Assembly: GCA_027008705.1 (NCBI GenBank)
Contig: JALVEB010000224.1
Span: forward strand, 1-56,542
Length of the DNA stretch: 56,542 bases
Direction of reading: 5' to 3'
From: Sedimenticola sp.
GTDB lineage: Bacteria; Pseudomonadota; Gammaproteobacteria; Chromatiales; Chromatiaceae
Shown: positions 542-35,394 of the stretch, in pieces
How positions within the stretch are numbered: the first letter of the stretch is position 1
How the letters are laid out: every line of letters starts with the position of its first letter
Notes under the pieces: generated by a model
What the model was told of the DNA's origin: nothing
What the model saw: only the letters and a program-made list of their open reading frames with translations
Databases searched by the model: none
Position numbers and translations under genes: made by a program

Positions 542-1036
542 ATGCATATTGATGCCACAGAGAAGAAATGGATCTATCTGACGTTCTTGATGACCTTCGC
601 CGGCATCGGCGTGCTCGCGGCCTACGCCATCAAGGACAACATCTATCCACCCAGCAACGTCGAAACCATCGACTCCGCCGCGTTGCACCTGAGTGACGAG
701 TTCAACGAGGACGCGATCGGCGTGCGGCGCGAGAAGGACGGCAGTATCCGCGTGACCATGGTCGCCGCGCGTTATGGTTTCTTTCCGCAAGGAATCACCG
801 TGCCGGTGGATACCCCAGTGAAGATCCGCATCGCCAGCGCCGATGTATTGCACGGCATCCATACGGTCGATACCAACTTCAACACCATGGTCGTGCCCGG
901 CTATGTCTCGGAGGTCAACACCACCTTCAAGAAGACAGGAACCTTCCCGATGTTCTGCAACGAGTACTGCGGTCTCGGGCATGATTTCATGTGGGCGCGC
1001 CTGACCGTCGTGCCGAAAGAAAAATTCAAGCTCTGA
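542..1036 (+). CDS. ba3-type cytochrome c oxidase subunit II (CuA)
   Basis: This 164-residue protein is the electron entry subunit of a ba3-type heme-copper oxidase. It has one N-terminal membrane anchor at about 10-31, then a periplasmic cupredoxin domain. The CuA site is complete by eye: His104 (in LHGIH), Cys139, Glu141, Cys143, His147 and Met150 in CNEYCGLGHDFM. The length and single anchor fit the short ba3 form rather than the two-anchor aa3 form. Cytochrome c should deliver electrons to CuA, and the diheme cytochrome encoded two genes downstream is the obvious candidate. The gene sits 12 bases after the small subunit and 15 bases before subunit I, so the set is one transcription unit. 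Confidence 0.93.
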   Translation: MHIDATEKKWIYLTFLMTFAGIGVLAAYAIKDNIYPPSNVETIDSAALHLSDEFNEDAIGVRREKDGSIRVTMVAARYGFFPQGITVPVDTPVKIRIASADVLHGIHTVDTNFNTMVVPGYVSEVNTTFKKTGTFPMFCNEYCGLGHDFMWARLTVVPKEKFKL

Positions 1037-3444: not shown

Positions 3445-5937
3445 TTGAGCGGCGACTGTTTCCATTGCGGTACGCCGGTGAGCGAGCGACGGCCGCCGGT
3501 ATTCGAGGTGTCGGGCGCGCCTCGCCGTTTCTGTTGCGAGGGCTGCGCCGCGGTATGTCGCGCGATTGTCGAATCCGGGAATGAGGACTACTACCGTTAT
3601 CGCGACGCGCCGGCGCGGGTGGTCGATGCCAGCGAACTCGATGCCCTGGATGAGCGTTTCGGTCTCTACGATCATCCGGGCATACAGAAGGATTTCGTTC
3701 GTGGCGGTGGCGACTGGAAGGAAGCCTCGCTGATCCTCGAGCAGATCGAATGCGCGGCTTGCCTGTGGCTCAACGAGCGCCACTTGCGCAAGCTCGATGG
3801 CGTGCTCGACGTCGAGATGGATTACACCAGCCAGCAGGCGCGGATCCGCTGGGATCCCCGGCGTCTCCAGTTGAGCGACATTCTGCGCGCGATCGCGGCG
3901 ATCGGCTATGTGGCCCATCCGTATGATCCGGCTCGTCGCGAGCAGCTCGCGCGCGAGCAGAAGCAGCGCTCGATCCAGCGTCTGATCTTTGCTGGCGTGC
4001 TCGGCATGGTGGTGATGAATTTCTCGCTGAGCAGCTACCTCTTCGGCGCGCCGGATGCCCGCGGGGATTACCCGATGTGGATCGACATCGGGCGCTGGAC
4101 CAGCCTGTTCGTCACCGCGCTGCTGCTGGCCTATCCAGGGCAGGTCTTCTTTCGCGACGCCTGGCGTGAATTGCGCTCCAGGCAGCTGGGCATGGACATT
4201 CCGGTGGCGCTTGGATTGACCTTGGCATGGCTCGCCAGCCTGCATGCCACGCTGACTCAGCGCGGCGAGGTCTATTTCGAGTCGATCGCGATGTTCGTGC
4301 TGTTCCTGCTCGCCGCGCGTTATGCCGAGTTGCGCGCGCGCCTGCGCGCCGCGGCGTTGCTCGATCGGGTCGCGACCATCGTGCCGCGGGAGGTGGTGCG
4401 CGTCGACGCCGATGGCGAAGAGGAACGCGTGCCGTTGTTCGAGATCGCGCCGGGCGATGAATTGCTGTTGTCGCCCGGCGAGGTGGTGCCGGTCGATGGC
4501 ATCCTCGTCGAAGGCGAGGGCGGGATCGACGAATCCCTGCTCAACGGCGAAGCGACGCCGCGCCACAAGATGCCGGGGGATCGGCTCGCCGGCGGGGCGG
4601 TGAATATCGACCAGCGGATTCGCATGCGCGCCACCGCCGATGCGGGGGATTCCACCCTGGAGCGCATTCAGCGCCTCACCGAGGTGGGGCTGCACAGCCA
4701 ACCGCCGATGGTGCGGCTGGCTGACCGGGTGGCGGCCTGGTTCGTTCCCGGGGTATTGCTGGTGGCCCTGCTGACCGGTCTGTACTGGTGGTGGGCGGAG
4801 CCCGCCCGTGTGTTGCCCAGCGTGATCGCGGTGTTGATCGTCACCTGCCCCTGCGCGTTGGCATTGGCCGCGCCGGTGGCGACCACGCTCGGCGCCGCCG
4901 GCTTGTCGCGGCTTGGCGTCGTCGCCTTGCGCATGGCCGCGATTGAGCGCGTGCACCATCTCGATACCCTGGTTTTCGACAAGACCGGCACATTGACGCG
5001 GGGCGAGCCGGAAGTGGTTGCGATCGAGGCGGTCGAAGGGATCGATGTCTCGCGTTGCATTGCGTTTGCGGCGGCGCTCGAAGAGGGCTCGGAACACCCG
5101 TTCGCGCGCGCGATTCGTCGTCGCGCGGAGGGTTTGCCGAAGGTTACGATGACACGCCATGCCAATCATCCAGGCGAGGGGATCGAGGCTGAGCGGGATG
5201 GCGAGATCTGGCGCATCGGCAGCGCGGGCTTCGCCGGGGGCGCAGCGGCGCCGGCGGAGTGCGCGCGTGCTGGTGACAGCTTTCTGTTTCTGAGTCGAAA
5301 CGGCGAATGGGTGGCGCGCTTTCGGCTGCGTGATCCGTTGCGTGACGGGATCGACGAGGCCCTGGCGGGCTGGAGGAAACTGGGAATCGGCCGATTCGTG
5401 GTATTGAGCGGCGACGCCGCCGGCGCGGTCGAGGCGCTGGCCGCGCGCCTTGGCATGGATCTCGCCTTGGGTGAGATGTCGCCGGAAGACAAGCTGCGTT
5501 GGCTGGAGAGCGAGCAGCGGGGAGGATCCCGGCTGGCGATGTTCGGTGACGGCATCAATGATGCGCCGACCCTGGCGATGGCCGACGTTTCGTTTGCATT
5601 CTCGAACGCCACTGATCTGGCGCGCGCGAGCAGTGATTTCCTGCTTCTGAATCCGGGTTATGCCGGCCTGCCCGAGGCGTTCGCCCTGATGCGTTCGACG
5701 AGGCGGGTGATTCTCGGCAACCTGTCATGGGCGCTGGCCTATAACCTTGCCGCGATTCCGTTGGCGGCGGTCGGTCTGGTGCCGCCATGGGCGGCGGCAA
5801 TCGGCATGTCGCTCAGTTCGACCCTGGTCGTGGCCAATGCGATGAGACTGCGTGGGTGGGTCGCCGCCGGCGCGCGGGGACGCACCGGCCCGGCGGAAGA
5901 AAAACCGATGCGAAAAATGCGGCCGGCCGTGCGCTAA
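3445..5937 (+). CDS. Copper-transporting P1B-type ATPase, FixI/CcoI family
   Basis: This 830-residue inner-membrane P-type ATPase has the FixI/CcoI layout. An N-terminal cysteine cluster (Cys5, Cys8, Cys30, Cys31, Cys34) is followed by a heavy-metal-associated domain with CAAC at Cys103-Cys106. Membrane spans follow, including the CPC transport motif (Cys468-Cys470), then the DKTGT phosphorylation site (Asp512), an SEHPF motif and the GDGINDAP hinge. Members of this family export copper for assembly of heme-copper oxidases. Its place directly after a ba3 oxidase fits supply of CuA/CuB. The start is TTG at 3445, supported by a GGGGG stretch upstream and by in-frame conservation of the Cys cluster. 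FixI is usually tied to cbb3 oxidase, so pairing with ba3 is notable. Confidence 0.92.
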   Translation: MSGDCFHCGTPVSERRPPVFEVSGAPRRFCCEGCAAVCRAIVESGNEDYYRYRDAPARVVDASELDALDERFGLYDHPGIQKDFVRGGGDWKEASLILEQIECAACLWLNERHLRKLDGVLDVEMDYTSQQARIRWDPRRLQLSDILRAIAAIGYVAHPYDPARREQLAREQKQRSIQRLIFAGVLGMVVMNFSLSSYLFGAPDARGDYPMWIDIGRWTSLFVTALLLAYPGQVFFRDAWRELRSRQLGMDIPVALGLTLAWLASLHATLTQRGEVYFESIAMFVLFLLAARYAELRARLRAAALLDRVATIVPREVVRVDADGEEERVPLFEIAPGDELLLSPGEVVPVDGILVEGEGGIDESLLNGEATPRHKMPGDRLAGGAVNIDQRIRMRATADAGDSTLERIQRLTEVGLHSQPPMVRLADRVAAWFVPGVLLVALLTGLYWWWAEPARVLPSVIAVLIVTCPCALALAAPVATTLGAAGLSRLGVVALRMAAIERVHHLDTLVFDKTGTLTRGEPEVVAIEAVEGIDVSRCIAFAAALEEGSEHPFARAIRRRAEGLPKVTMTRHANHPGEGIEAERDGEIWRIGSAGFAGGAAAPAECARAGDSFLFLSRNGEWVARFRLRDPLRDGIDEALAGWRKLGIGRFVVLSGDAAGAVEALAARLGMDLALGEMSPEDKLRWLESEQRGGSRLAMFGDGINDAPTLAMADVSFAFSNATDLARASSDFLLLNPGYAGLPEAFALMRSTRRVILGNLSWALAYNLAAIPLAAVGLVPPWAAAIGMSLSSTLVVANAMRLRGWVAAGARGRTGPAEEKPMRKMRPAVR

Positions 5938-6205
5938 AACGGGTAAATATTATCATTTTATTATGGAGCTGGCTCATTTTAAGTGATTGATATATGTTAA
6001 AGACTCGATATCCATTGAACGATCATACTGAAATCGTCTGTTTATATGGGATTATCCTATCCGATCAGTGGAAAGGCCTTTTTTATCCGTGAATCGGTGC
6101 GGTTTGGCGAGCATTTTCGGTCAGGGAATCCGGACAGAGACCGCGTGCCGAAAAACAACGTAAAAATCGGCGGTTTTGCTCGCGCCATGGTTATTATCCC
6201 TATAA
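5938..6205. other. AT-rich non-coding spacer after the copper ATPase
   Basis: No gene and no convincing terminator are visible. Base composition is clearly lower in GC than the flanking genes, for example the AT-rich stretch at 5940-6060. It leads into repeat copy B2, and the MITE-end remnant at 6425 follows before the heptaheme cytochrome gene. Confidence 0.5.
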
Positions 6206-6539: not shown

Positions 6540-8954
6540 ATGACCAGCAGACACCCCCGCCGGTCGGCGTTTCCGATGTTGTCCGCTCTTGTCGGGCTTG
6601 CCTTGGCGCTTGGCGCCCAGGCCGGCTCGCCGGAAACGACGGCGACCAAGCCGATCAACGATTACAATATCACGATCAACTACGAGCTGGGCATGCATTG
6701 CACCGGCTTCGATTTCACCTATTGCTGCATTCTTCCGCCGTACAACTCGATCCAGAGCCAAGTCATCAAGACCGCCGACGCGCCGGACAAACTGCCGCGT
6801 CTGCTCGCCGCGGCCGAGGACGACCCCAGCGTGCTGGTCGATGGCGATCGGCGCATGAAGCTGGCCTATACCCACGTCAATAACACCTTCTCCGAGGGCG
6901 CCAAGCTGAACTACTGGCGCATCCCCTACGATGTCGATGGCGATGGCGAGTACGGTCCGAACGAGAACGTCGGCAACGCCTACTTCACCCAGCTCTATAT
7001 CTACAAGGATCTGGAAGGCAGCAATCCGAGTGGCACCAGCAAGGACAGCGAGAAGAAACGCGTCGGCATCGAGCTGCCGATCCCGGTCGACCACGGTCCC
7101 ACCGGGCAGCCGCTTGGGGGCGGCACGCTGAAATTCTCCGGTCGCACCGGCACGGTCGTCTTCTCCAAGTCGCCGGTGCTCGACAATGTGCCGATCGTGC
7201 TCACCAACCCGGGCATCTGGGAGGCGCTGGGCCTGCCATTGACGCCGTTCGACGACAGCATCGCCGACCAGGATCCGCTGACCATCGTCGAATCCCAGAT
7301 CTCGCCGTATCAGCAGGCGCAGGTCTCGCTGGTCGATGCCGACAGTGGCAAGCCCATCATCGACAGTCACAGCGGCAAGCCGATCTCGTTCATCGGCACC
7401 AACCCGATCGACGTGCCGAACTGCGCCAACTGCCACTCCAACGACAACGCCAACGGCAAGAAATACCACCTGTACAAGCAGGAAAAGGCTTTCTGGAAAT
7501 CGCTTGGCGCGACCGACTATATCGCCAACCTGAAAGCCACCTCGGTTTCGGTGCTCGAGATTCATGACGGTAAGTTCGGCACCGACTTCCTCGCGAAATA
7601 CAACCCGAAGAGCCGTTCCAAGGACAACCGACTGGGGCGTGATCCCATCCTCTGTCAGAAATGCCATGCCGACAATGTCATCGGCGTGCTGAAATCGCGT
7701 GGCACGGTCGAATCGGTGACCGGAAAGATCAAGAAGAAGGACAAGCCGCTGGAGCCGCTCAGCCAGGCCATGCATCGAGGCCATCTCCAGGTGCGCGCGC
7801 TGTCCGATTCCCAGGGGCGCACCGGGATGTGCCAGGGCTGCCACCCGGCGCATCGTCAGGACCATGACATGGTCGGTTATCCAATCACGCCGAAGGGTCG
7901 CAATGCCTATGCCCGTCGCGACAATCGCGACTCCAAGGGTGGCTGTTATGTCGGCCGCGACGTGCATTCCAACCCCGGCAAGGACCAGGACGGCGCCGAA
8001 ACGCCCGAGCATCTGAACGCGATCGGTCAATGGTTGCAGAACAACATCTCGAAGATCGGCAACGGCGAAGGCGGCAAGGGGCTGTGGTGCACCAACTGCC
8101 ATAACCAGCTTGCGCGCGTGCTCTATCAGTACGACAACATCGAGCAGGCCTTCTGGCAGAAAGGCAAGACCCTGCGCAACAAGTCGTTGAAAGAGATCGC
8201 CGCCTACATGGGCATCAGCGTCGACGAGCTGACCAGCGACTGGATGGACCCGAAGACCAAGCCCAGCACCTTCATCCCGAAGCAGGCCGACATGAAGAAC
8301 ATCCTGCGCGTATGGGATCGCGATCGTCTGGTGCCGGATATCGCGGTGATCGCCACCAAGGACGGCAAGCCGGTGATCCACAAAGACGAAGACGGTGATC
8401 CGAACGTGGTCATCCTGTCCGCGAACCCGGCGGTCGATCTCGCGTCGCTGAAACTGCCGGAGGGTGCCGATGGCGCGTTGGCGGTGCCTTATAGCGCGGC
8501 CGATCATGGGCGGGACTATTGGTTGTCTCCGGGCGTGCCGCATTGCGCGGATTGCCATGCCGCTCCATACGTCGAAGGGCAGGGCGGCGTCGCCTTCCCG
8601 ATCAACCAGCCGGGCAAGTACAGCCAGGTACGCTACACCAAAGGGCATGCCGGCATCTCTTGCCAGGCTTGTCATGAATCGATCCACGGCCTCTACCCGG
8701 TCACGCCGCGCATCGATACGACGACCTACAAGCAGCCCACCCAGTACAACCCGGATGGCAGCCATGGTCCGTTGAAATGCGCGGCCTGTCATGAGACCAA
8801 CGAGCACGGTGTGCCGCTGATCGCCCGGAACAAGACCTACGAAGGCAAGCCGATCAAGGACGATTTCGATGCCGCGGTCAGCTGGATCCACGCCAACGCG
8901 CCCGATCTGGGCGGCAGGATCCCGCCGATCAACGACGATCGCCCCGTAGACTGA
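6540..8954 (+). CDS. Heptaheme c-type cytochrome, orphan paralogue near the oxidase
   Basis: This 804-residue exported protein has a signal peptide ending near residue 29. A long heme-free N-terminal region contains an unusual motif, GMHCTGFDFTYCCILPPYNS (Cys54, Cys62, Cys63). Seven CXXCH motifs follow at Cys295, 372, 431, 517, 669, 708 and 747. It should be a periplasmic or surface electron carrier; partners are unknown. It is a close paralogue of the protein at 22644-25046, with the same heme order and near-identical N-terminal and C-terminal blocks. Here it stands alone, with a GGAGGAAGAG ribosome binding site and a probable terminator after it. Whether the N-terminal cysteines bind a metal or form disulfides cannot be told. 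I do not recognise a named family. Confidence 0.9.
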   Translation: MTSRHPRRSAFPMLSALVGLALALGAQAGSPETTATKPINDYNITINYELGMHCTGFDFTYCCILPPYNSIQSQVIKTADAPDKLPRLLAAAEDDPSVLVDGDRRMKLAYTHVNNTFSEGAKLNYWRIPYDVDGDGEYGPNENVGNAYFTQLYIYKDLEGSNPSGTSKDSEKKRVGIELPIPVDHGPTGQPLGGGTLKFSGRTGTVVFSKSPVLDNVPIVLTNPGIWEALGLPLTPFDDSIADQDPLTIVESQISPYQQAQVSLVDADSGKPIIDSHSGKPISFIGTNPIDVPNCANCHSNDNANGKKYHLYKQEKAFWKSLGATDYIANLKATSVSVLEIHDGKFGTDFLAKYNPKSRSKDNRLGRDPILCQKCHADNVIGVLKSRGTVESVTGKIKKKDKPLEPLSQAMHRGHLQVRALSDSQGRTGMCQGCHPAHRQDHDMVGYPITPKGRNAYARRDNRDSKGGCYVGRDVHSNPGKDQDGAETPEHLNAIGQWLQNNISKIGNGEGGKGLWCTNCHNQLARVLYQYDNIEQAFWQKGKTLRNKSLKEIAAYMGISVDELTSDWMDPKTKPSTFIPKQADMKNILRVWDRDRLVPDIAVIATKDGKPVIHKDEDGDPNVVILSANPAVDLASLKLPEGADGALAVPYSAADHGRDYWLSPGVPHCADCHAAPYVEGQGGVAFPINQPGKYSQVRYTKGHAGISCQACHESIHGLYPVTPRIDTTTYKQPTQYNPDGSHGPLKCAACHETNEHGVPLIARNKTYEGKPIKDDFDAAVSWIHANAPDLGGRIPPINDDRPVD

Positions 8955-9000: not shown

Positions 9001-9183
9001 TATGCGGGGCCACGTCATCTAACCCGGACATTTCATGAATTCATGGGGTGATCGCGCAGGAGAGGGTTTTCACAAGGAATTTTCTGAAGGCGTCCCGTAT
9101 CGGGGATTACGGGCAACGGAAGAAAATGTCTTGTGGGAACAAGAAGCCAGCGAGGGCGCGTGTAATTCATGAATGTTCCGGGC

Positions 9184-9347
9184 TATACTCGTCGCCCATG
9201 AATTGTTGGGTTTTCGAGGCCGTTCCTCGCGCCCGTGGGCCAGGCGCGGAAGCGAGTCATAGCCCATTCCAAGACGAGTTTCCGCAACGACGCCCACGGG
9301 TGCGAGGGGCGGTGGCAGTGGCCGAAAATTCATGGGCGGCGGATATA
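9184..9347 (+). mobile_element. MITE-like 164-bp element, copy A1
   Basis: It begins TATACTCGTCGCCCATG and ends with a diverged copy of the inverted terminus (CATGGGCGGCGGATATA). It is the same length as the copies at 13067, 32590 and 32752 and lies in the same orientation as 32590/32752. Internal arms pair along most of its length. It lies between convergent genes (heptaheme cytochrome and PLD lipoprotein). The open frames it contains recur in every copy and are not genes. Confidence 0.85.
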
Positions 9348-9450
9348 ACCGATTGATAAAGTCAGAGTGGCGTCGGCTTGGAAAACCTCGGAGGCATGGA
9401 TGCCGGAGCCCTGCTTTGTTATGCCTGACGCATTCCCATTGCCGGGGCGT

Positions 9451-10992: not shown

Positions 10993-11708
10993 CGTGGGGT
11001 CTCTCGGGCTGGAAAGCGTCCGTGACGCAGGAAATGGATGACGGCGTTGCTGATATATCGGCTGTAGCGCATCAGGCCATGGCCGCTGGGGGCCACCAGG
11101 AAATCGCGCATGCCGGGCAGGCGGGTGCTGGCGACCGAAACCACGCCATCGTCGGGACCGGGCAGCAGCCAGGAGCCGAACGGGTTCAGACTGTGATCCC
11201 CGGCAATGATGCCGAGCTCGTATTCCGGTGGCGGCAAGCGTTTGGGAAAGCTGTCGCCGGCGGTGCCGAGACGGGTCGCGGTGGGGCCGGCGAGACGGCG
11301 CGCCCAGCGCCACGCGGGGCGTTCGAGCAGATCGGCCAGTTCGCTGCCCTGGTTCGGCGTGCCGAGAAGCACGACCCGTCCGAGATGCTGTACCGGCTTG
11401 CGCGCAAGCAGGCCGCGCAGCAGCAGTCCGCCGAGGGAATGACCAACGAAGTGTACACGGGCTTTGTAGCGGCAGCATTGGATGACCTGATATCGGAGCA
11501 AGGCGATCAGCGCGTCGGGTGGCAGACTTCGTGACGGATAGTCCAGCGCGATCACCTCGAAGCCCGCGCGGCGCAGTTCCCGTCCGATGAAGGACATCGC
11601 GCCGGCATCACGTCCGAGGCCGTGCAGCAGGACGACGGTTTCGCCGGGCGCCGCCGCGTTATTCGCGCTCAGCGCGATCAGGCAGAGTAGCTGGATGGCC
11701 CGTGTCAA
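10989..11708 (-). CDS. Secreted alpha/beta hydrolase (lipase/esterase-like)
   Basis: This 239-residue protein begins at a TTG that overlaps the stop of the upstream gene, followed by a signal peptide (MTRAIQLLCLIALSANNAAA). The hydrolase core shows VLLHGLGRD (oxyanion region), the nucleophile elbow GHSLGG and a plausible C-terminal acid/histidine pair in DGVVSV and SGHGLM. The class resembles small acyl-ester lipases and palmitoyl-thioesterase-like proteins. It lies between two lipoproteins and shares 4-base overlaps with both, so the three are surely co-transcribed. The start is uncertain because no upstream ATG in frame is free of the neighbouring gene. Substrate unknown. Confidence 0.82.
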   Translation of the reverse strand: MTRAIQLLCLIALSANNAAAPGETVVLLHGLGRDAGAMSFIGRELRRAGFEVIALDYPSRSLPPDALIALLRYQVIQCCRYKARVHFVGHSLGGLLLRGLLARKPVQHLGRVVLLGTPNQGSELADLLERPAWRWARRLAGPTATRLGTAGDSFPKRLPPPEYELGIIAGDHSLNPFGSWLLPGPDDGVVSVASTRLPGMRDFLVAPSGHGLMRYSRYISNAVIHFLRHGRFPARETPR

Positions 11709-13045
11709 TGGCGTACCGCCGTCGGATCGATGTGGCGTGGGGCCTGATCGGGATGGAGTGCCCCATGATCCCAGTCGAGAAAGCGGATTTCGCGGCGTTG
11801 CAACACGCGGCGCGTGGGAAGCTTGCCGTGATCGACCACCAGGATCGCGCGCAATCCGTCGCTCCAGTAGGGATCGCCGGTGAGATTGTGGCGGGGCTTG
11901 TCGGGTGACGAGGCGCCGAGCCCCTCGATATAGCCGAACGCTTCGATCTGCCCGGACAGTAGCAGATCCTCGATCAGGTAATTGCGCGCCTCGTCGATGT
12001 CCGGATCGATCTTGTGCGTCACCAGGAACGGGCTTTTCAAGGTGAAGCGCACGCCGATATCCCGGCTGATCTGGCCGATCCAGACCGGTTTGTCGCCGAC
12101 TGACCAGGGAGTCAGCCACAGGCGCAAGTGATTGCGTTGGTTGATTGAAGCGCGGGCCTTCTGCATCGCCAGATCCTGCTTGCGCCCGAAGGCATAGAGC
12201 GGACTGACGGGGGAATAGTCATATCTGGAGCCGAACAGAAACGAAGCGATGGTTTTGCGAATCGATTCCGCATGGTTCTTTTCGGCCGGGTGCCATCCTC
12301 GTGATGTGAACACCCGACGCAGGTCTTTCGGACGGGCGATGATGACCAGGTTCAATGGATCACCGCTGGCGCGCTGTTTCGCGTCGGTGGTGCAGCAACC
12401 GACGGCCGGCAGGCGGTTGCGCAGTGCCTCCAGGCTCAGTTTTTCGATGGCCCCGGTCGGATAGAGCGATCGGGCGTCGGGCAGCTTGTCGGTCAGCAAC
12501 TCGGGGCGGGGGAGAAAAATCGGGAGCTCGAGGAGATCGTGACGGCCGATAACGATGGCGGCGGCTTCGCGGTCGAGGCTGTCGGTACTGACGAACACGA
12601 AACCACGCCGGCGTTGTCCGGCATGAACCGGGTTGTGGAAATTGCCGGCTTCCAGCCGCGCCACCAGGGTATCGTAATCGGCCTGACTCAGACCCACGCG
12701 AAAACGGTAAGCGACTTCCGCTGGGGACAGGTAACCCGGTGCCAGGGATGGCAGCAGCAGCCAGTGCGGATGATGGCTGCGGCGATTGTCCAGGTCTACC
12801 CACAGCGCATGCACCCAGCGCGATCCGAGATCGACGCCGAACAACGCCTTGGCGCGTTCCCGCGGCACCACGGTGACCGCGAGCGACAGCTCGTTCATGC
12901 GTTCCACCTGTGCATCGCGTGACAGGTCATCGACCGGGAAGGTCTCGATGGACGCCAGCGGTACCGGTTGCGTGGTGGCGCAGGCGCTCAGCAGCAGGGC
13001 AAGGAGGGCGGGCAGAGCAGGACGCGGGTTACGGAGCGGATGCAT
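11705..13045 (-). CDS. LssY C-terminal domain lipoprotein
   Basis: This 446-residue protein has a lipoprotein signal (LLLSAC). The C-terminal part matches the LssY C-terminal domain pattern by eye: FGSRYDYSPVSPLYAFGR, then a PVWIGQISRDIG segment and a THKIDPDIDEARNYL segment. In many bacteria this domain follows PAP2 phosphatase or DedA-like membrane proteins; here it stands alone as a lipoprotein. Function is not established, though the usual partners point to membrane lipids. It is the first gene of the three-gene minus-strand unit. An upstream in-frame extension to 13216 is encoded by the MITE-like element and is rejected as a start. Confidence 0.8.
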   Translation of the reverse strand: MHPLRNPRPALPALLALLLSACATTQPVPLASIETFPVDDLSRDAQVERMNELSLAVTVVPRERAKALFGVDLGSRWVHALWVDLDNRRSHHPHWLLLPSLAPGYLSPAEVAYRFRVGLSQADYDTLVARLEAGNFHNPVHAGQRRRGFVFVSTDSLDREAAAIVIGRHDLLELPIFLPRPELLTDKLPDARSLYPTGAIEKLSLEALRNRLPAVGCCTTDAKQRASGDPLNLVIIARPKDLRRVFTSRGWHPAEKNHAESIRKTIASFLFGSRYDYSPVSPLYAFGRKQDLAMQKARASINQRNHLRLWLTPWSVGDKPVWIGQISRDIGVRFTLKSPFLVTHKIDPDIDEARNYLIEDLLLSGQIEAFGYIEGLGASSPDKPRHNLTGDPYWSDGLRAILVVDHGKLPTRRVLQRREIRFLDWDHGALHPDQAPRHIDPTAVRH

Positions 13046-13066
13046 GGGTTCGTTTTCCCTTGTGTA

Positions 13067-13230
13067 TATACTCGCCGCCCATGAATTTTCGGCCACTGCG
13101 ACCGCCCCTCGCACCCGTGGGCGTTGTTGCGGAAACTCGCCATAGAATGGGCTATGACTCGCTTCCGCGCCTGGCCCACGGGCGCGAGGAACGGTCTCGA
13201 AAAACCGAAAACCCATGGGCGACGAGTATA
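13067..13230 (-). mobile_element. MITE-like 164-bp element, copy A2
   Basis: Its perfect termini are TATACTCG at the left and CGAGTATA at the right. The orientation is opposite to A1, A4 and A5. If the element proper is TACTC...GAGTA (160 bp), each side is flanked by TA. It sits between the divergent genes for the LssY lipoprotein and the M50 protease, so it may occupy or alter their promoters. Confidence 0.88.
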
Positions 13231-13272
13231 CAATAGCGTTTTTCTTTTGGTCGTTGCACGGGAAAGCGCCGC

Positions 13273-19241: not shown

Positions 19242-20063
19242 ATGAACCGACCCCCTGACCGCATCGCGTCCGCGATGCGCCTGCTTCTTTGTTGTTGGCT
19301 GCTCGTGCTGGGCGGTGTCGCGCTCGCGGCTTCCGGTAACCCGAAGGATGCCGCGCGGGCCTACCACGATGCGCGTTGGAACCCGTTGCACTTCGCGCCG
19401 GCGATCGACCACGCCAGCGATGCGCAATGCCTGCAATGTCACGGCGAGATCGAGCAGCGTCGTCCGCGCGACCGCAGCCCGGCCGGGGTGCCGGCCGATG
19501 AGACCCTGGCCTGGTACCAGACGCTGGATACCTATCGCGGCCCCCAGGACAGCTTTCATCGCCGCCACCGCGACACGCCGCTGGCGAAGCGGCTGATGAG
19601 GCTGCGCTGCAACAGCTGCCACCGGGGGCATAACCCGGATCGCGAGGTCGCCGTCGATGGCGATCCCCTGCGTCACGACCCGGCGTTGCGCAAGGACGTT
19701 GACAGCGACATCTGTCTGATGTGTCACGGTCGCTTCGATTACACCGTGATGCCGGGCCTGAGCGCGCCGTGGAGTGAGAGCCGCGAGCGTTTTCAGAACA
19801 ACTGTCTGGCCTGTCACCGCGCCTTTCGCACCCAGCGTCATCAGTTGAATTTCCTGAATGCGAAAGCGATCGAGGAGGCCGGAGAAGCCGATGGCGATGT
19901 CTGCTATGGCTGTCATGGCGGTCGTGCCTGGTATGCGCTCGCCTATCCCTATGTGCGTCGTCCGTGGCCGCGCATGCCGTCGGTCACGCCGTCGTGGGCC
20001 GCCGGTCGTCCCAGCCAGTATCCCGCCCGATTCCTGAACAACGAGGCCGACAACAATGAATGA
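19242..20063 (+). CDS. Pentaheme c-type cytochrome
   Basis: This 273-residue exported protein has a hydrophobic signal (LLLCCWLLVLGGVALA) and five CXXCH motifs at Cys63 (CLQCH), 123 (CNSCH), 158 (CLMCH), 188 (CLACH) and 221 (CYGCH). Heme spacing and His-rich linkers recall the NrfB/DmsE-like family of electron-transfer cytochromes, but the heme number is not the usual 5-in-compact or 10-heme pattern and I do not assign a name. It is the first gene behind a sigma-54-type promoter, with a GGAGGAG ribosome binding site, and it overlaps the molybdoenzyme gene by 8 bases. It is the most likely direct redox partner of that enzyme. Confidence 0.88.
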   Translation: MNRPPDRIASAMRLLLCCWLLVLGGVALAASGNPKDAARAYHDARWNPLHFAPAIDHASDAQCLQCHGEIEQRRPRDRSPAGVPADETLAWYQTLDTYRGPQDSFHRRHRDTPLAKRLMRLRCNSCHRGHNPDREVAVDGDPLRHDPALRKDVDSDICLMCHGRFDYTVMPGLSAPWSESRERFQNNCLACHRAFRTQRHQLNFLNAKAIEEAGEADGDVCYGCHGGRAWYALAYPYVRRPWPRMPSVTPSWAAGRPSQYPARFLNNEADNNE

Positions 20064-22629
20064 CGAAAAGACGCTCCCCCGGCGCATCGCCTCCGCGTTG
20101 AGCATGAAGCGACGCGATTTTCTGAAGACCACGACGCTGACCGGCGCGGCGGCGCTCGCCGGTGGCGGCCTGTTGCGCGCGCGGCGCGCCGAGGCCTACG
20201 CCTACGCTCCGCATCCCACGGACGACGAGATGGAGACCGTGGTCACCAGTTGCGCGCACAACTGCGGCTCCCGTCATGTGCTGGTGGCGCACAAGAAAGG
20301 GGATGTCATCGTGCGCCTGTCGTCGGACGACGGCCGCTTCCAGAAGGGTGGCTTCTATGGCAAGGACACCCGCGACGAGCCGCAGTTGCGCGCCTGCCTG
20401 CGTGGACGATCGTATCGCGAGCGGATCTACTCCTCCGAGCGATTGCTGTATCCGATGATGCGCGTCGGCGAGCGCGGCTCCGGGCGCTTCCGTCGCGTTT
20501 CCTGGGACAGCGCGCTGGATTTCGTCGCCACCAAGATGCAGGAGATCAAGGAGAAATACGGCTCGCAGGCGATCCTCGATCAGGCCTATGCCGGATCTTC
20601 CTATGGCGTGCTCCACAAGTCGGACCAGATCGACGGATTGCAGGCGCGCCTGCTCGGGATGTTCGCCTGTCGCACCAGCTCCTGGTCGGTGCCGTCGTAC
20701 CAGGGCACCACGACCAGCTCGCGCTGGACCTTCGGCACCATCGAGGACGGCAACGAGGACGACACCTTCGAGCACTCCAGATTGATCATCATGTGGGGTT
20801 GGAACCCGGCCTACACCTTTCACGGCGGCAATACCGTCTACTATATGCGGCGCGCGCGCCAGAAGGGTTGCAAGTTCGTCGTCATCGATCCGCAGTACAC
20901 CGATTCGGCCGCGGTCTACGATGCCTGGTGGATCCCGATCAAGCCGAACACCGACGCCGCGATGATGGCGGCGATGGCGCATGAGATCTTCAGCGAGAAC
21001 CTTCAGGACCAGTCGTTCATCGATCAGTTCACCCAGGGCATGGATGCCGGCACCATGCCGGAGTGGGCGCGCAATGCCCCGAACGGCGGCGAGAACTTCA
21101 AGGACTATATTCTCGGCAAGTACGATGGCCAGCCCAAGACGCCGGAATGGGCCGAGCCGATCTGCGGCGTCAAGGCCGCCGATATCCGCAAGCTCGCGCG
21201 CATGTACGCCACCACCAAGCCGGCTGCGTTGAAGGCCTGCTGGGGGCCGGGGCGCAACTCCTACGGCGAGCAGTACAACCGCATGGCCGCGGCCTTGCAG
21301 GCGATGACCGGCAACATCGGCGTGCTCGGCGGCTGCGCCGAGGGCGTCGGCAAGGCTTGGCACGCCGAGGCCGTCGCCTATCCCTACGATGGTTACAGCA
21401 ACATCTGGTTCGGCTCGATCAAGTCCGATCGCTGGGCGCATCTGGTCAACAACTACCCGAACGTGAAGCGCGAGGAGATCGGCCTGTGGCCGCGCGACGA
21501 TGAGTTCGACGGCGTGATTCCGAATATCAAGGGGATCTTCTGGCAGGGCTCGGACTGGTTCAACCAGCTCACCAATATCAACAAGGAGATCGCCGCGATC
21601 AAGAAGCTGGAGCTGGTGGTCTGTCTGGATCAGACGATTACCCCGTCCGGCTTGTTCGCCGACGTGCTGCTGCCGATCTGCACCCATTTCGAGCGCCATG
21701 ATGTCGCGTTGCCCTGGTACAAGGGGCACTACTACATCCACCGGCCGAAGGTCATCGAGCCGCTGGGCGAGTCGAAGACCGATTTCCAGGTCTTCACCGA
21801 GCTCGCCTGGCGCATCGGCGGAGAGCGTTTCGGCAAGGCCTACAACCCGCGCGCCGAGCGGGACTATTGGGAGCATCCGGACGCCACCGACGAGGCCTAT
21901 CTGAAGGCTTGGTGGGAAGAGGGCGTGATGGGTCGCCAGGGCGCGACCATGAGCTGGGACGAGTTCAAGCGCCATGGGATCTACAAGGTCAAGCTGGATC
22001 GGCCGCATGTGGCCTTCCAGGATCAGATCGAAAAGGGCGAGCCGTTCCCGACGCCGTCCGGCAAGATCGAGATCCTGTGCGGCGAGCTGGCGAAGATCGA
22101 CGACTGGACGCGCACCCGCTACGGCGCCCACATCCCGTCGATCCCGAAGTGGATCGAGCCGACCGAATCGCTGAATCACCCATTGCGCGAGCGTTTTCCG
22201 TTTCACCTGATCACCCCGCACCCACGTCAGCGCACCCACTCGATTTTCAACAACAGCAAGTGGCTGCGCGAGACCTACGAGCAGGATGTCACGATGAACA
22301 CCGCCGACGCGCGCCGCCTCGGCCTGAAGGATGGCGACACCGTCGAGGTATGGAACGACCGCGGCATGGTGGTGGTGCCGCTGCGCACCACCGAGCGGCT
22401 GATGCCCGGGGTGCTGGTGATCTACGAAGGCGCCTGGCTGGACATGGACCAGCAACAGATCGACCGCGCCGGCAATCCCAACGTACTGACCGCCGACCAG
22501 CCGAGCCCGGCCGGCGCCTTCGTCTACAACACCATCCTGGTCGCGGTGCGCAAGAGCCGGCGCGCGCACTGGCCCGGCTGGGACGAAACCGCGAACGCCC
22601 GCGCCCAGGTCTTCCGGCGCGATCTGTGA
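20056..22629 (+). CDS. Tat-exported molybdopterin oxidoreductase, DmsA-like
   Basis: This 857-residue DMSO-reductase-family catalytic subunit has a twin-arginine signal (MKRRDFLKTT at about residue 17). The order of motifs follows DmsA: the RACLRGRSYRERIY segment, a GNEDDTFEHSRLIIMWGWNP segment and the C-terminal molybdopterin-binding LGLKDGDTVEVWNDRGMVVVP. Ser214 aligns by eye with the Mo-ligand serine of DmsA. The iron-sulfur motif is Cys66-x3-Cys70-x3-His74 and Cys114, so the third cysteine is replaced by His. No DmsB-type ferredoxin subunit and no DmsC anchor are encoded nearby; multiheme cytochromes flank it instead. It should act in the periplasm. Substrate and direction are unknown. 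Confidence 0.92.
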   Translation: MNDEKTLPRRIASALSMKRRDFLKTTTLTGAAALAGGGLLRARRAEAYAYAPHPTDDEMETVVTSCAHNCGSRHVLVAHKKGDVIVRLSSDDGRFQKGGFYGKDTRDEPQLRACLRGRSYRERIYSSERLLYPMMRVGERGSGRFRRVSWDSALDFVATKMQEIKEKYGSQAILDQAYAGSSYGVLHKSDQIDGLQARLLGMFACRTSSWSVPSYQGTTTSSRWTFGTIEDGNEDDTFEHSRLIIMWGWNPAYTFHGGNTVYYMRRARQKGCKFVVIDPQYTDSAAVYDAWWIPIKPNTDAAMMAAMAHEIFSENLQDQSFIDQFTQGMDAGTMPEWARNAPNGGENFKDYILGKYDGQPKTPEWAEPICGVKAADIRKLARMYATTKPAALKACWGPGRNSYGEQYNRMAAALQAMTGNIGVLGGCAEGVGKAWHAEAVAYPYDGYSNIWFGSIKSDRWAHLVNNYPNVKREEIGLWPRDDEFDGVIPNIKGIFWQGSDWFNQLTNINKEIAAIKKLELVVCLDQTITPSGLFADVLLPICTHFERHDVALPWYKGHYYIHRPKVIEPLGESKTDFQVFTELAWRIGGERFGKAYNPRAERDYWEHPDATDEAYLKAWWEEGVMGRQGATMSWDEFKRHGIYKVKLDRPHVAFQDQIEKGEPFPTPSGKIEILCGELAKIDDWTRTRYGAHIPSIPKWIEPTESLNHPLRERFPFHLITPHPRQRTHSIFNNSKWLRETYEQDVTMNTADARRLGLKDGDTVEVWNDRGMVVVPLRTTERLMPGVLVIYEGAWLDMDQQQIDRAGNPNVLTADQPSPAGAFVYNTILVAVRKSRRAHWPGWDETANARAQVFRRDL

Positions 22630-22643
22630 GGGAGTCCGACGAG

Positions 22644-25046
22644 ATGACTAGCCACAAGCGACACACCCTGTTTCTTCTGTTGTCGATGGCGCTGCTGCCG
22701 GTTGCTCCGGCGCTCGCCAGCGTGCGTCCGCTGCACGAGTACAACATCACCATCAACTACGAGCTCGGCATGCACTGCACCGGCTTCGATTTCACCTACT
22801 GCTGCATCCTGCCGCCGTACAACTCGATCCAGAGTCAGGTGATCAAGACCGCGCTCGCTCCAGATGCCAAACCGCGCCTGTTGGCCGCCGACCCGAAGGA
22901 CTCGAGCGTGGTCATCGACGGCGCTCGGCGCATGAAACTGAACTACGGCCACATGGACAACAGCTATTCCGAGGGTTCCAAGCTGGCCTACTGGGAGGTG
23001 CCCTATGACGTCGATGGCGATGGCCGGTACGGCCCCCATGAGAACGTCGGCAACGCCTATTTCACCCACCTCTATGTGTACAAGGGCCTCGAAGGCGAGA
23101 ACCCAACCGGCGGTAGTCGCGACAGCGACAAGAAGCGCGTCGGCATCGAGATCCCGATCCCGCGCGACAACGGTCCGGCCGGCGGCGCGGTGCCCAGCCC
23201 GATGCATGGCGGTCATCTGCATTACACCGGCGACAGCGGCACCGTCGTCTTCACCAAGTCCCCGGTGCTCGACAATGTGCCAATCATGCTCACCCATCCC
23301 GGGATCTGGGACGCGCTCGGTCTGCCGCTGACGCCGTTCAACGACAGCACCATGCGGCGCAGCCCGTTGACCATCGTCGAAAGCGAGATCCGCCCGTACC
23401 AGGAGGCCTGGGTCGCGCTGGTCGACGCCGACAGCGGGCGGCCCGTGATCGATCGTGTCACCGGCCGTCCGGCCTACTTCATCGGCACCAACCCGATCGA
23501 TGTGCCGAACTGCTCCAACTGCCACTCCAACGACAACGCCAACGGTGAGGCCTATCAGCTCTACAAACAGGAGAAAACCTTCTGGAAGAGCCTGGGCGCG
23601 AGCGACTACATCGCCAACCTGAAAGCCACCTCGGTATCGATTCTGCAGATCCATGACGCCAAGCACGGCACCCGCTTTCTGAAGAACTATCGTCCAGAGA
23701 GCCGCGCCACCGCCAACCGTCTCGGGCGCGATCCGGTGCTGTGTCAGAAATGTCATGCCGACAACGTCATCGGCGTGCTGCGCTCGAAGGGCGTGATCGA
23801 ATCGATGACCGGCCAGGCGATCGACACCGACATCCCGATCCCGCCGCTGAGTCAGGCCCTGCACCATGCCCACCTCGTCAACCGGCCGTTGCCGGACTCG
23901 TTCGGTCGCACCAATGCCTGTGCCGGCTGCCACCCGTCGCACCGTCAGGACGGCTCGATGGACGGCTACCCGATCACCCCGGACGGCCGCAATACCTACG
24001 CCGATTCCGACAACCGCGACACCGCCGGTGGTTGCTTCGCCGGACGCGACGTGCATTCCAACCCGAACAAGGACCGCGACGGCGTGGAAACCCCCGAGCA
24101 CCTGACCGCGATTGGCAAGTGGCTGCAAGAGAACGTTTCCCAAATCGGAAACGGCAAGCACGGCAAGGGGCTGTGGTGCACCAACTGTCACAACCAGCTC
24201 TCGCGCGAACTCTATCAGTACGACCGCATCACCCAGGCCTTCAAGCAGCAGGGCCGCACCCTGCGCAACCGCTCGCTGGATGAGATCGCCCAGGCGATCG
24301 GCGTGACGCGAAAGGAACTCGAAGAGCGATACCTCGATCCGAAAGTAGTGCTCGACGAGAACGGTCGCAACACCGAGGGCCGCTCCGGGGTGCTGTTGCC
24401 GTGGGCGCAGCAGCGCCTGGTCGCCGACATCGGCGTCATCGCGTTGAACGGCAAGGCTCCGCTGATCCGACGGGATGCCGACGGTGATGTCAACGTCGCG
24501 CTGCTGTCGCCGAACCCCGGGGTCGAGCCCGCCAGCCTGCCGCTCCCGGCCGGTGCCAGCGGCGCCGCGGCGGTCTCCTACGATGCCGCCGATCACGGCC
24601 GCGATTACTGGCTCTCTCCCGGCGCGCCGCACTGCGCCGACTGCCACGCGCCGCCGTTCGTCGAAGGGCAGGGCGGCGCCGCCTTTCCGATCAACCAGCC
24701 CGGCAAGTACAGCCTGATGCGCTACAGCAAAGGCCATGCCGGACTCGCCTGTCAGGCCTGTCACCAGTCGATCCACGGTCTCTACCCGGTGACCCCGGAT
24801 GTCGACACCACGACCTACCGACAGGCGCCGCAATACAACCCGGATGGCAGTCATGGCCCACTGAAGTGCCCGGCCTGCCACCTGAGCAATGACAAGGGCG
24901 TGCCCCTGATCGCCAGAGACAAGGCCTGGAAAGGGCGGCCGATCCGCGATGATTTCGACGCGGCGGTCTCCTGGATGCATGCCAGCGCGCCTGATCTCGG
25001 CGGCCGCAACCCGCCGCCCGACACCAAAATCCCGTCCCGCATGTAG
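22644..25046 (+). CDS. Heptaheme c-type cytochrome of the Mo operon
   Basis: This 800-residue protein has a signal peptide (LFLLLSMALLPVAPALA). The same N-terminal GMHCTGFDFTYCCILPP motif is present as in the protein at 6540-8954, and seven CXXCH motifs lie at Cys290, 367, 426, 512, 664, 703 and 742. The ATG at 22644 is chosen because the signal peptide begins there, 14 bases after the molybdoenzyme stop with GGGAG upstream; a much longer frame running back to 21867 is only overlap with the previous gene. The protein should carry electrons to or from the molybdoenzyme and pentaheme protein. The heme-free first 280 residues are as long as the heme part is distinctive and may be a separate domain. 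Confidence 0.9.
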   Translation: MTSHKRHTLFLLLSMALLPVAPALASVRPLHEYNITINYELGMHCTGFDFTYCCILPPYNSIQSQVIKTALAPDAKPRLLAADPKDSSVVIDGARRMKLNYGHMDNSYSEGSKLAYWEVPYDVDGDGRYGPHENVGNAYFTHLYVYKGLEGENPTGGSRDSDKKRVGIEIPIPRDNGPAGGAVPSPMHGGHLHYTGDSGTVVFTKSPVLDNVPIMLTHPGIWDALGLPLTPFNDSTMRRSPLTIVESEIRPYQEAWVALVDADSGRPVIDRVTGRPAYFIGTNPIDVPNCSNCHSNDNANGEAYQLYKQEKTFWKSLGASDYIANLKATSVSILQIHDAKHGTRFLKNYRPESRATANRLGRDPVLCQKCHADNVIGVLRSKGVIESMTGQAIDTDIPIPPLSQALHHAHLVNRPLPDSFGRTNACAGCHPSHRQDGSMDGYPITPDGRNTYADSDNRDTAGGCFAGRDVHSNPNKDRDGVETPEHLTAIGKWLQENVSQIGNGKHGKGLWCTNCHNQLSRELYQYDRITQAFKQQGRTLRNRSLDEIAQAIGVTRKELEERYLDPKVVLDENGRNTEGRSGVLLPWAQQRLVADIGVIALNGKAPLIRRDADGDVNVALLSPNPGVEPASLPLPAGASGAAAVSYDAADHGRDYWLSPGAPHCADCHAPPFVEGQGGAAFPINQPGKYSLMRYSKGHAGLACQACHQSIHGLYPVTPDVDTTTYRQAPQYNPDGSHGPLKCPACHLSNDKGVPLIARDKAWKGRPIRDDFDAAVSWMHASAPDLGGRNPPPDTKIPSRM

Positions 25047-25061
25047 AGAGGTGGCCAGACC

Positions 25062-26378
25062 ATGAAAGCGACAGCATCCATTCATCCGCCGCGCGGCGCG
25101 CGTCGCCGCTTCCCGCCAGGCCGCCTGCTGGCGCTGCTGGCCCTGCTTGCCTGTCTCGGCGGCGCGATGGCGCAAGAGGTCATCGTCTCGGTCGGCCAGC
25201 GTGACTTCACCGACGACGATCTCAAGCGCCTGATCAACAGCTCGACGCTGGCGGTGGCTTTCCCGACCTTCTCGAAGGATCAGGCCGCCGGCGTGCGTGG
25301 CGAACTGCTCAAGCGCGTGATCGCCTCCGAACTGCTCTACCACGAGGCCAAGCGGCTCGGACTCGACAAGACGCCGGAATACCGTAACGAGATGAAGCGC
25401 TTCGAACAGACCCTGCTGTACCAGCGCTACCTCGACCGGCTGCGCAACCAGATCGAGGTGCCGAAAGAGGTCCAGGAGCGTATCCAGTCGCAGTTCAAGG
25501 ACCGTCCGGCCGACCAGCTCGCGGCGCGCGACATCTATATCGGAAAGCGCTTCCCCGAGCTCAAGGCCAAGCGTCTCCAGGAGCTGAGGAAACGCTACCA
25601 CCTGACCCTGGACGAAAAGGCCCTGCGCGCGCCGCACTGCGCCGGCGACACCGTGCTGGCCAAGGGAGACGGCATCCGCATCACCTACAATGACATCGGC
25701 GGCGCGCGCAAGCCCAACCTCGCCGAGGCGATGCTGCGCCTGCAACGCGCCAGCGAGGCGGCGGTGTTTGCCCGCGCCGCGCGCGACGAGGGCATCGATA
25801 TCCGCGGCCCGCTCGACGATTACAGCCACAGCCTGCTGTCGCGCATGCTGTTGGCGCGCAAGCAGAAGGAATGGGTGCCGGACCAGAAGACCCTGCGCGC
25901 CTGGCTGGTCCGACATCCCGAGATCGCCTACGCCCCGGCCAAGTGGCACCTCGGCGAGATTGTACTGAAGAACGCGGAACAAGCGGTCGCGCTGCGCGAT
26001 ACCATCCGCAACGGTGCCAGCCTCTTCGAACTCGCCGGCCAATACAGCATCGACCCGGTCGGGCGCGCCAACTATGGCGATATCGGCTGGGTCACCGAGG
26101 GCGCGATCGACCCGAAGATCGAACAGGCCCTGCGCAAGCTGCGTCCCGGCGAGGTCAGCGAGGTCATCCGCACCCCGCGTGGCTATGTACTGGTCACCGT
26201 GATCGATGCCCGTCCCCGGGTCAAGAAACCATTCTCGGCAGTGGCCGACCAGGCGCGTCGGGCGTTGACGAATCAGCGCCTGGCCCGGTATCTGTCGAAG
26301 CTTCAGGAACGCTATCCGCTGCGCTGGCGCATCCCGGTCTATATCCGTTCATACGAAGACTTCTTCAACATGCAATAG
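25062..26378 (+). CDS. Parvulin-type peptidyl-prolyl isomerase (PpiC/SurA-like)
   Basis: This 438-residue exported protein has a hydrophobic signal at about residues 18-38. A SurA/PpiD-like helical chaperone part follows (about 40-280, Lys/Arg rich), then a PpiC rotamase domain at about 290-385 with WHLGEIVLKN, YSIDPVGRANYGDIGWV and VIRTPRGYVLVTV. It should assist folding of exported proteins in the periplasm. Its position directly after a heptaheme cytochrome, 16 bases apart, suggests it is dedicated to folding these large cytochromes or the molybdoenzyme. Dedicated prolyl isomerases also occur beside some extracellular multiheme cytochrome genes. Confidence 0.88.
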   Translation: MKATASIHPPRGARRRFPPGRLLALLALLACLGGAMAQEVIVSVGQRDFTDDDLKRLINSSTLAVAFPTFSKDQAAGVRGELLKRVIASELLYHEAKRLGLDKTPEYRNEMKRFEQTLLYQRYLDRLRNQIEVPKEVQERIQSQFKDRPADQLAARDIYIGKRFPELKAKRLQELRKRYHLTLDEKALRAPHCAGDTVLAKGDGIRITYNDIGGARKPNLAEAMLRLQRASEAAVFARAARDEGIDIRGPLDDYSHSLLSRMLLARKQKEWVPDQKTLRAWLVRHPEIAYAPAKWHLGEIVLKNAEQAVALRDTIRNGASLFELAGQYSIDPVGRANYGDIGWVTEGAIDPKIEQALRKLRPGEVSEVIRTPRGYVLVTVIDARPRVKKPFSAVADQARRALTNQRLARYLSKLQERYPLRWRIPVYIRSYEDFFNMQ

Positions 26379-32507: not shown

Positions 32508-32589
32508 GTCGGTCCCGCGTCGGTGGCTTGCTCTTATAGCGGCGGGAGGGCGGATGGCTTGATCCTTCGGAGGCGCCGATGTGTCAAGG

Positions 32590-32753
32590 TATACTCGTCG
32601 CCCATGGCTTGTCGGATTTTCGAGAGCGTTCCTCGCGCCCGTGGGCCAGGCGCGGAAACGAGTCATAGCCCATTCCATGGCGAGTTTCCGCAACAACGCC
32701 CACGGGTGCGAGGGGCGGTCGCAGTGGCCGAAAAGCCATGGGCGACGAGTATA
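32590..32753 (+). mobile_element. MITE-like 164-bp element, tandem copy A4
   Basis: Perfect termini TATACTCGTCGCCCATG and CATGGGCGACGAGTATA are present. It shares a TA with the next copy: the junction reads GAGTA-TA-TACTC. The two copies differ at only a few positions, so the duplication or double insertion is recent. It lies between the HDOD gene start and the metA stop. Confidence 0.9.
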
Positions 32754-32915
32754 TACTCGTCGCCCATGGCTTTTCGGATTTTCGAGAGCGTTCCTCGCGC
32801 CCGTGGGCCAGGCGCGGAAACGAGTCATAGCCCATTCTATGGCGAGTTTCCGCAACAACGCCCACGGGTGCGAGGGGCGGTCGCAGTGGCCGAAAAGTCA
32901 TGGGCGACGAGTATA
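32752..32915 (+). mobile_element. MITE-like 164-bp element, tandem copy A5
   Basis: It is the same length, orientation and termini as A4. Together they fill most of the 560-base spacer 32508-33068, in which I see no gene. Internal arms pair again (GCGGAAAC..CATAG on one side against CTATGGCGAGTTTCCGC on the other), giving a near-full-length hairpin. Confidence 0.9.
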
Positions 32916-33068
32916 TATCTTCCCCACAACCCTCGTCGTCTCGCTAGTGTGGTGTTGCGCGCTGTGTGGAGCGCCATAATCAGCGGGAATTACGGGTGAG
33001 ACTGAACTCTTGTCCCTTATTCCCGGGGACCATGGCCGGCGTTTGCGCACCCGTCTCGGCGAGCCGGG

Positions 33069-35382: not shown

Positions 35383-35394
35383 ATGAGGACGAAG

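Follow-up and report, generated by a model that had tools for sequence, protein, structure and literature searches.

Heptaheme cytochromes of a Sedimenticola genome, encoded beside a ba3-type oxidase and a DmsA-like molybdoenzyme, as candidate electron-transfer subunits

The Sedimenticola contig analyzed here encodes two related seven-heme c-type cytochromes, designated as A and B, which are exported and probably act as exchangeable periplasmic electron-transfer subunits. A lies behind a gene cluster for a ba3-type oxidase, and B is flanked by genes for a DmsA-family molybdoenzyme and a PpiC-type peptidylprolyl isomerase (PPIase); both contexts, already recognized in the original prediction, are kept in other genomes. 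A third copy, C, is encoded elsewhere in the genome. Given that the same cytochrome fold is found with an oxidase, a molybdoenzyme, and a quinol dehydrogenase as partners, it is best read as an electron-transfer module. We infer both the function of A, B, and C and the direction of electron flow through them. For the genus, we suggest more tentatively, as a possibility rather than an expectation, that a seven-heme cytochrome replaced the iron-sulfur subunit of a DmsA-family molybdoenzyme, that its sister protein feeds the ba3 oxidase, and that the N-terminal LGMHC domain is a general docking or catalytic module plugging the scaffold into unrelated respiratory enzymes. If this is true, an iron-sulfur subunit has given way to a cytochrome in a molybdoenzyme operon of which the same genomes keep both versions, and an uncurated multiheme family from metagenome-assembled genomes (MAGs) of methane, sulfur, and iron oxidizers gains a link to a defined oxidase. 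The coexistence of standard and swapped operons would allow a direct comparison of the roles of the two electron-transfer subunits.

Cytochromes A and B and the oxidase cluster

The window (the whole 56,542-nucleotide stretch of DNA analyzed) is an entire contig of a 2.9 Mb draft genome that is 99% complete. The features of the two cytochromes are as follows.

6540..8954, + strand: heptaheme cytochrome A (oxidase-linked copy); 69% identical to B; AF2 model with pLDDT 80.9 and pTM 0.84
6651..7409, + strand: heme-free N-terminal domain of A, residues 38-290; predicted to be beta-rich
6687..6746, + strand: invariant loop of A, residues 50-69 (LGMHC..LPPYN); L50, G51, M52, H53, C54, L65, P67, and N69 invariant in 55/55 N-terminal rows
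7422..8792, + strand: seven-heme region of A, residues 295-751; CXXCH at 295, 372, 431, 517, 669, 708, and 747; PF22113 and PF14522 above cut-off
22644..25046, + strand: heptaheme cytochrome B, found where DmsB follows the molybdoenzyme in 6/6 standard operons read

As predicted, both reading frames are complete (804 and 800 aa), each protein has seven CXXCH motifs in the same order, and a heme-free N-terminal stretch of about 250 residues containing GMHCTGFDFTYCC is present in both. The identity (531 of 771 aligned residues) extends over nearly the full length and is therefore not due to chance. The signal sequence, which had been described as shared, is not: each protein has a Sec-like hydrophobic leader by eye, but the leader sequences are unalike.

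Upstream of A, the following genes were found.

542..1036, + strand: ba3-type oxidase subunit II (CuA); PF00116
1037..2677, + strand: ba3-type (B-family) oxidase subunit I; PF00115, 313 bits
2665..3342, + strand: diheme cytochrome c, overlapping the oxidase gene; PF00034, two stretches
3445..5937, + strand: copper-translocating P-type ATPase; TIGR01511, 428 bits (cut-off 397)

In a phmmer search of the PDB, subunit I scored 382 bits to Thermus ba3 oxidase, as against at most 52 bits for chains from 2yev down, and the short subunit II (164 aa) scored 89 bits to ba3 subunit II, which fits a B-family heme-copper oxidase. Judged by these scores, the oxidase is of the ba3 type. It resembles the Thermus enzyme in subunits I and II and differs in what follows, namely the genes for the diheme cytochrome, the copper ATPase, and the heptaheme cytochrome.

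A had been regarded as an orphan, but L013, L015, L072, and L073 show the full order COX2-COX1-diheme c-Cu ATPase-heptaheme, which in L012 (beginning at COX1) and L014 (beginning at the ATPase) is truncated by a contig end. A version with PpiC behind the heptaheme gene and without the Cu ATPase (COX2-COX1-diheme c-heptaheme-PpiC) occurs in nine Methylococcales loci (L026, L027, L031-L035, L044, and L062), and L059 has an oxidase cluster close by, encoded on the other strand. Counted against our preferred reading is the 602-bp gap between the copper ATPase gene and the start of A, which bears on co-transcription. One FNR-like box lies in this gap, at 5987-6000; FNR-like boxes were not taken as a signal, since the 24 matches at up to two mismatches exceeded the 11 expected but were scattered across the whole window. 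As a separate observation, in a methane-oxidizing endosymbiont of Gigantopelta aegis (L032, 4748-8417) the oxidase subunit I frame is in several pieces, and the heptaheme and PpiC matches are continuous.

B in a second version of a molybdoenzyme operon

B is accompanied by the following genes.

19242..20063, + strand: pentaheme c-type cytochrome; five CXXCH in the translation; PF14522
20056..22629, + strand: DmsA/YnfE-family molybdoenzyme with a TAT-type leader; TIGR02166, 617 bits (cut-off 777.7); PF00384 and PF01568 above and PF10518 just below cut-off
25062..26378, + strand: PpiC/SurA-like peptidylprolyl isomerase; PF00639

The pentaheme and molybdoenzyme homologs adjoin each other in all 15 loci found, the window included, two of them from the window genome, with the order reversed in L132. 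All six longer stretches (L189-L194), including contig 142 of the window genome, have the standard order pentaheme-molybdoenzyme-DmsB-like-NarJ-like; the DmsB identity, given by HMM for L189 and L190, is below the TIGR02951 cut-off (214.1 bits; 196.7 for the standard sister operon). The three genomes of the genus that were examined (G000, G001, and G002) each possess a standard operon and, elsewhere, a pentaheme-molybdoenzyme pair directly followed by a heptaheme gene and then PpiC. G001 is 62% complete, and the second operon of G002 is split over two contigs and was pieced together from the two ends.

The B operon is a second version of the pentaheme/DmsA-like/DmsB-like/NarJ-like operon: it lacks the DmsB-like and NarJ-like genes and has heptaheme and PpiC genes instead. 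A tblastn search with DmsB gave no match in the 56.5 kb window, and DmsB is present in the sister operon on contig 142. Because the standard and swapped operons stand side by side and the window holds no DmsB match, we read B as a stand-in for DmsB; the gene order is observed, and B would carry the electrons. The DmsB from contig 142 could also serve the B-operon molybdoenzyme in trans.

The operon can be compared with two known systems. Like DmsABC/YnfEFGH, it has a DmsA-family catalytic subunit, and its standard sister operon includes a DmsB-like subunit; unlike them, it has a pentaheme gene upstream and no adjacent DmsB, and its catalytic subunit scores below the TIGR02166 cut-off. TorA/TorC is a TMAO reductase fed by a pentaheme cytochrome, and here too, judging from gene order, a multiheme cytochrome would feed a molybdoenzyme of the DMSO reductase family in place of an iron-sulfur subunit. 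TorA-type enzymes lack an N-terminal Fe-S cluster, whereas the B-operon molybdoenzyme keeps a C-x3-C-x3-H...C motif and scores best as a DmsA-family protein. This motif was seen in 6/6 sequences (window 20056-22629, L189-L191, L193, and L194). E. coli DmsA has a third Cys where these enzymes have His, and the cluster may therefore have a His ligand.

Further copies, distribution, and phylogeny of the family

The original prediction spoke of two paralogs, but the genome also encodes C, a third close copy (65% identity, seven CXXCH) on the minus strand of contig 156 (L009, 12039-14483), as well as two remote nine-heme homologs on contigs 34 and 55, the frame on contig 34 running off the contig start. 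C has a lipoprotein-type leader with a lipobox. Downstream of C come its own PpiC gene and a TlpA-like gene. The opposite strand carries two diheme cytochrome genes, and the same contig also has a NapC/NirT tetraheme gene, which is adjoined by a gene for an ankyrin-repeat protein (L009, 16524-17540). The C-type context, heptaheme-PpiC and often TlpA, NapC, and diheme genes, recurs in many other loci.

Of the 77 rows with at least 600 bp of downstream sequence, 66 have a PpiC homolog no more than 1.2 kb behind the heptaheme gene (9/14 oxidase-linked, 2/2 molybdoenzyme-linked, and 55/61 others). None of the five judgeable rows of the A clade has one, and PpiC is therefore not obligatory. The isomerase encoded beside so many copies is probably a folding helper. 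PPIases have been reported in electron-transfer gene clusters of iron oxidizers (MofB and UetB; available portions of PMC5566968 and PMC10734462).

The nearest named relatives of A are L012 and L073, from MAGs called Sedimenticola sp. (87 and 86% in the best segment). G407, of the same genus, contains L073 and, by MAG name, L028, and gives three heptaheme-strength and two nine-heme-strength matches. Since the match places are those of G002, we took the two as one genome; the third heptaheme match, which was left out of the tree, lies behind NapC and diheme genes on the L028 contig and was therefore taken for the C type.

Counting the window genome itself, nine of its 55 relatives carry the heptaheme family. 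The scan of named genomes, among the best 80 of 155 relatives kept, found Chromatiales, Sedimenticolaceae, Methylococcales, Thiotrichaceae, Gallionellaceae, Rhodocyclaceae, other Pseudomonadota, and Nitrospinota, nearly all of them MAGs. With a profile of the N-terminal domain, 36 of 370 Gammaproteobacteria genomes gave a match; for Methylobacter marinus, 41 of 151 genomes from its family and 51 of 151 from its order did so, these two sets overlapping. Plasmids gave no match. In 11 of the 13 Gammaproteobacteria genomes with a profile match above 400 bits, that match was single, the cultivated Methylobacter marinus A45 (L034) has one match, and among the loci whose gene neighbors were read no heptaheme gene adjoined both an oxidase and a B-type molybdoenzyme. 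A literature search, of coverage far from complete, with motif strings and with heptaheme combined with ba3 oxidase or DMSO reductase found no paper on the family. Nor is it described in the available portions of PMC5566968, PMC10734462, PMC4831470, and PMC517821, or in those of a Methylobacter electrode study (PMC13322032). The family is widespread, little described, and uncurated.

The original prediction explained A and B by duplication with specialization. Phylogenetically (83 rows; quick tree search, SH-aLRT support only), A, B, and C fall into three clades, each common to other taxa. A is placed with the other oxidase-ATPase rows (8 rows including the long-branched L016, support 97). L028 and L093 group with B (100), within an 18-row set that includes the Methylococcales (95), and the clade of C has 10 rows (98). 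A recent duplication inside the lineage, modeled as a single clade of A, L012, L073, B, L028, and L093, was rejected (p-AU 1.8e-7). Placing all 16 oxidase-linked rows, a group named after the tree was seen, in one clade was likewise rejected (p-AU 0.0023), and the link with the oxidase therefore arose twice or is old with losses in some lineages.

The N-terminal domain, electron routes, and alternative readings

The N-terminal segment is not predicted to be disordered: modeled alone, it reached pLDDT 83 and pTM 0.81, with lower confidence in the motif loop (blocks of 64 and 51 over fragment residues 11-30). The models carry no hemes. No Pfam or NCBIfam model covers this domain in A or B. Neither the full model nor the domain matched a PDB entry in Foldseek at E <= 0.001, and in a second structure comparison the best Z scores (2.7 for the full model and 5.7 for the domain) were below the tool's own background; within that background, the nearest solved structures of the domain are mostly beta sandwiches. 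A sequence search of solved structures was not convincing either (best E 0.14 for A and 0.016 for alignment A2).

Thirteen residues, among them a single His and a single Cys, are invariant in all 55 N-terminal rows, at identities to A down to 23-30%. The words MHCTGFD and CQKCHAD served as seeds in the scan of named genomes, so that invariance inside these words among its loci is partly due to selection; the profile searches had no such seeding. When the domain alone was used as the query, as the original prediction had proposed for finding heme-free copies, 29 of the 30 best-scoring loci from the 370-genome search had the LGMHC motif, and 28 of these 29 had at least five CXXCH in the stretch covered, the exception being L117 (a 462-aa frame with one). 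We regard the beta domain at the N terminus as belonging to the cytochrome itself.

A disulfide (C54-C469 in A) probably also ties this domain to the heme region. From the motif on, 85 of 88 heptaheme rows have four non-heme cysteines; L050 has three, C63 being Arg, and the other two rows are the larger forms L097 and L098 (see below). In the 29 rows of the nine-heme type, the count is even in 22/22 complete nine-heme frames, ten of which have exactly two, the GMHC Cys and the Cys of C-x-R-G-x-M in the heme region. The short L117 has three. Six frames are truncated at the end of the locus; five of these have even counts, and the sixth, L127, has nine. Given the even counts and the ten frames with exactly two, a disulfide between the N-terminal and heme parts is the simplest reading, with C62-C63 as a second pair in the heptaheme proteins. 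C469 would correspond to the C-x-R-G-x-M cysteine of the nine-heme forms, a match that the alignment does not settle; the apparent invariance of C469 in the nine-heme rows L010 and L011 (alignment A2) is an artifact, a heme cysteine being aligned there. Larger forms were also seen: L097 and L098 (G009 and G026, of the window genome's family) are nine-heme proteins of about 1,130 aa with LGMHCTGFEFAYCC and with 19 and 18 non-heme cysteines, L186 and L187 (order of Methylobacter marinus) are nine-heme LGMHC proteins of about 1,000 aa with an extra N-terminal part, and L185 is a related nine-heme protein without the motif.

A would hand electrons to the diheme cytochrome, from where they would reach CuA in the ba3 oxidase and finally oxygen. 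B would substitute for DmsB and, with the pentaheme cytochrome, deliver electrons to the DmsA-like molybdoenzyme or take them from it, and the lipoprotein C may link the NapC-type quinol dehydrogenase and the diheme cytochromes to a further partner. The invariant LGMHC..LPPYN loop would lie against a heme or shape the face on which partners dock.

The main rival, which we consider unlikely, gives this loop an enzymatic role: with a nearby heme it would form the active site for a small compound, and the neighboring proteins would only supply or remove electrons. The 13 invariant residues at such low overall identity are consistent with this, as are the low confidence of the loop in an otherwise confident model, as for a ligand-bound site, and the retention of the domain with several hemes in nearly all motif-bearing loci. 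The conservation of this heme-free loop exceeds the needs of a plain wire, and catalysis could be involved. Set against this, no named multiheme enzyme family in Pfam or NCBIfam was matched, the GMHC cysteine resembles half of a disulfide, and the partner modules differ in kind, which is better suited to a carrier.

Copper binding by the N-terminal domain, which had been proposed for the GMHC..CC region and would make it a sensor, a carrier, or a cupredoxin-like electron site beside the copper-containing oxidase, appears improbable. M52, H53, and C54 are invariant, a copper ATPase gene lies upstream of A, and the weak structural neighbors include the copper proteins P19/FetP (Z <=5.4) and CrdA (Z 4.5), but Z scores below 6 are within the tool's stated background. 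A type 1 copper (cupredoxin) site consists of two His and one Cys, of which the domain's one invariant His and one invariant Cys fall short. The cysteine counts favor the interdomain disulfide over a copper site at GMHC, and the window's Cu ATPase, used as a tblastn query, had no homolog next to B or at any other place in the window, nor in the 19 kb surrounding C (L009).

Equally doubtful is a family of outer-membrane cytochromes for extracellular electron transfer of the MtrC kind, with the window copies as soluble derivatives. MtrC and OmcA also combine a beta domain with CXXCH heme regions; PF22113 (MtrC/MtrF domains II/IV) is just over the cut-off for A (32.7 against 30), MtrC domain III is among the weak structural neighbors (Z 4.5), and the CX8C spacing of that domain is found at C54-C63 in A. 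A strict lipobox, never followed by Asp, is present in 35 of the 69 rows outside the oxidase- and molybdoenzyme-linked groups; some of all the rows surveyed are near copies, and the pattern misses leaders that are lipoprotein-like by eye (e.g., L065). MtrC and OmcA, however, have ten c-type hemes and not seven, PF22113 is below the cut-off for B (25.7) and C (29.2), the fold match is not significant, and the lipobox present in C is absent from A, B, and all 16 oxidase-linked and three molybdoenzyme-linked rows. By description only, the family can also be compared with the multiheme cytochrome c553O family of another gammaproteobacterium, Methylococcus capsulatus, which according to the available portions of the reports has six members in one genome (PMC517821), several of which were located on the cell surface (PMC4831470). 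Nine-heme LGMHC proteins occur in genomes of the order to which Methylobacter marinus belongs (see above).

Two further features of the window were noted. A short stretch (ARGPGAEASHSPF..QRPRVRGAVAVAE and its complement) recurs between genes at 32581-32979 and nearby, 9048-9356, 11705-13216, and 12910-13236, where it gives several mechanical ORFs, and looks like a dispersed intergenic repeat. At 35383-36201, a protein is encoded that by eye has a Sec-like leader, a glycine-alanine repeat of the GGAGGAGGA type, and then a hydrophobic C-terminus.
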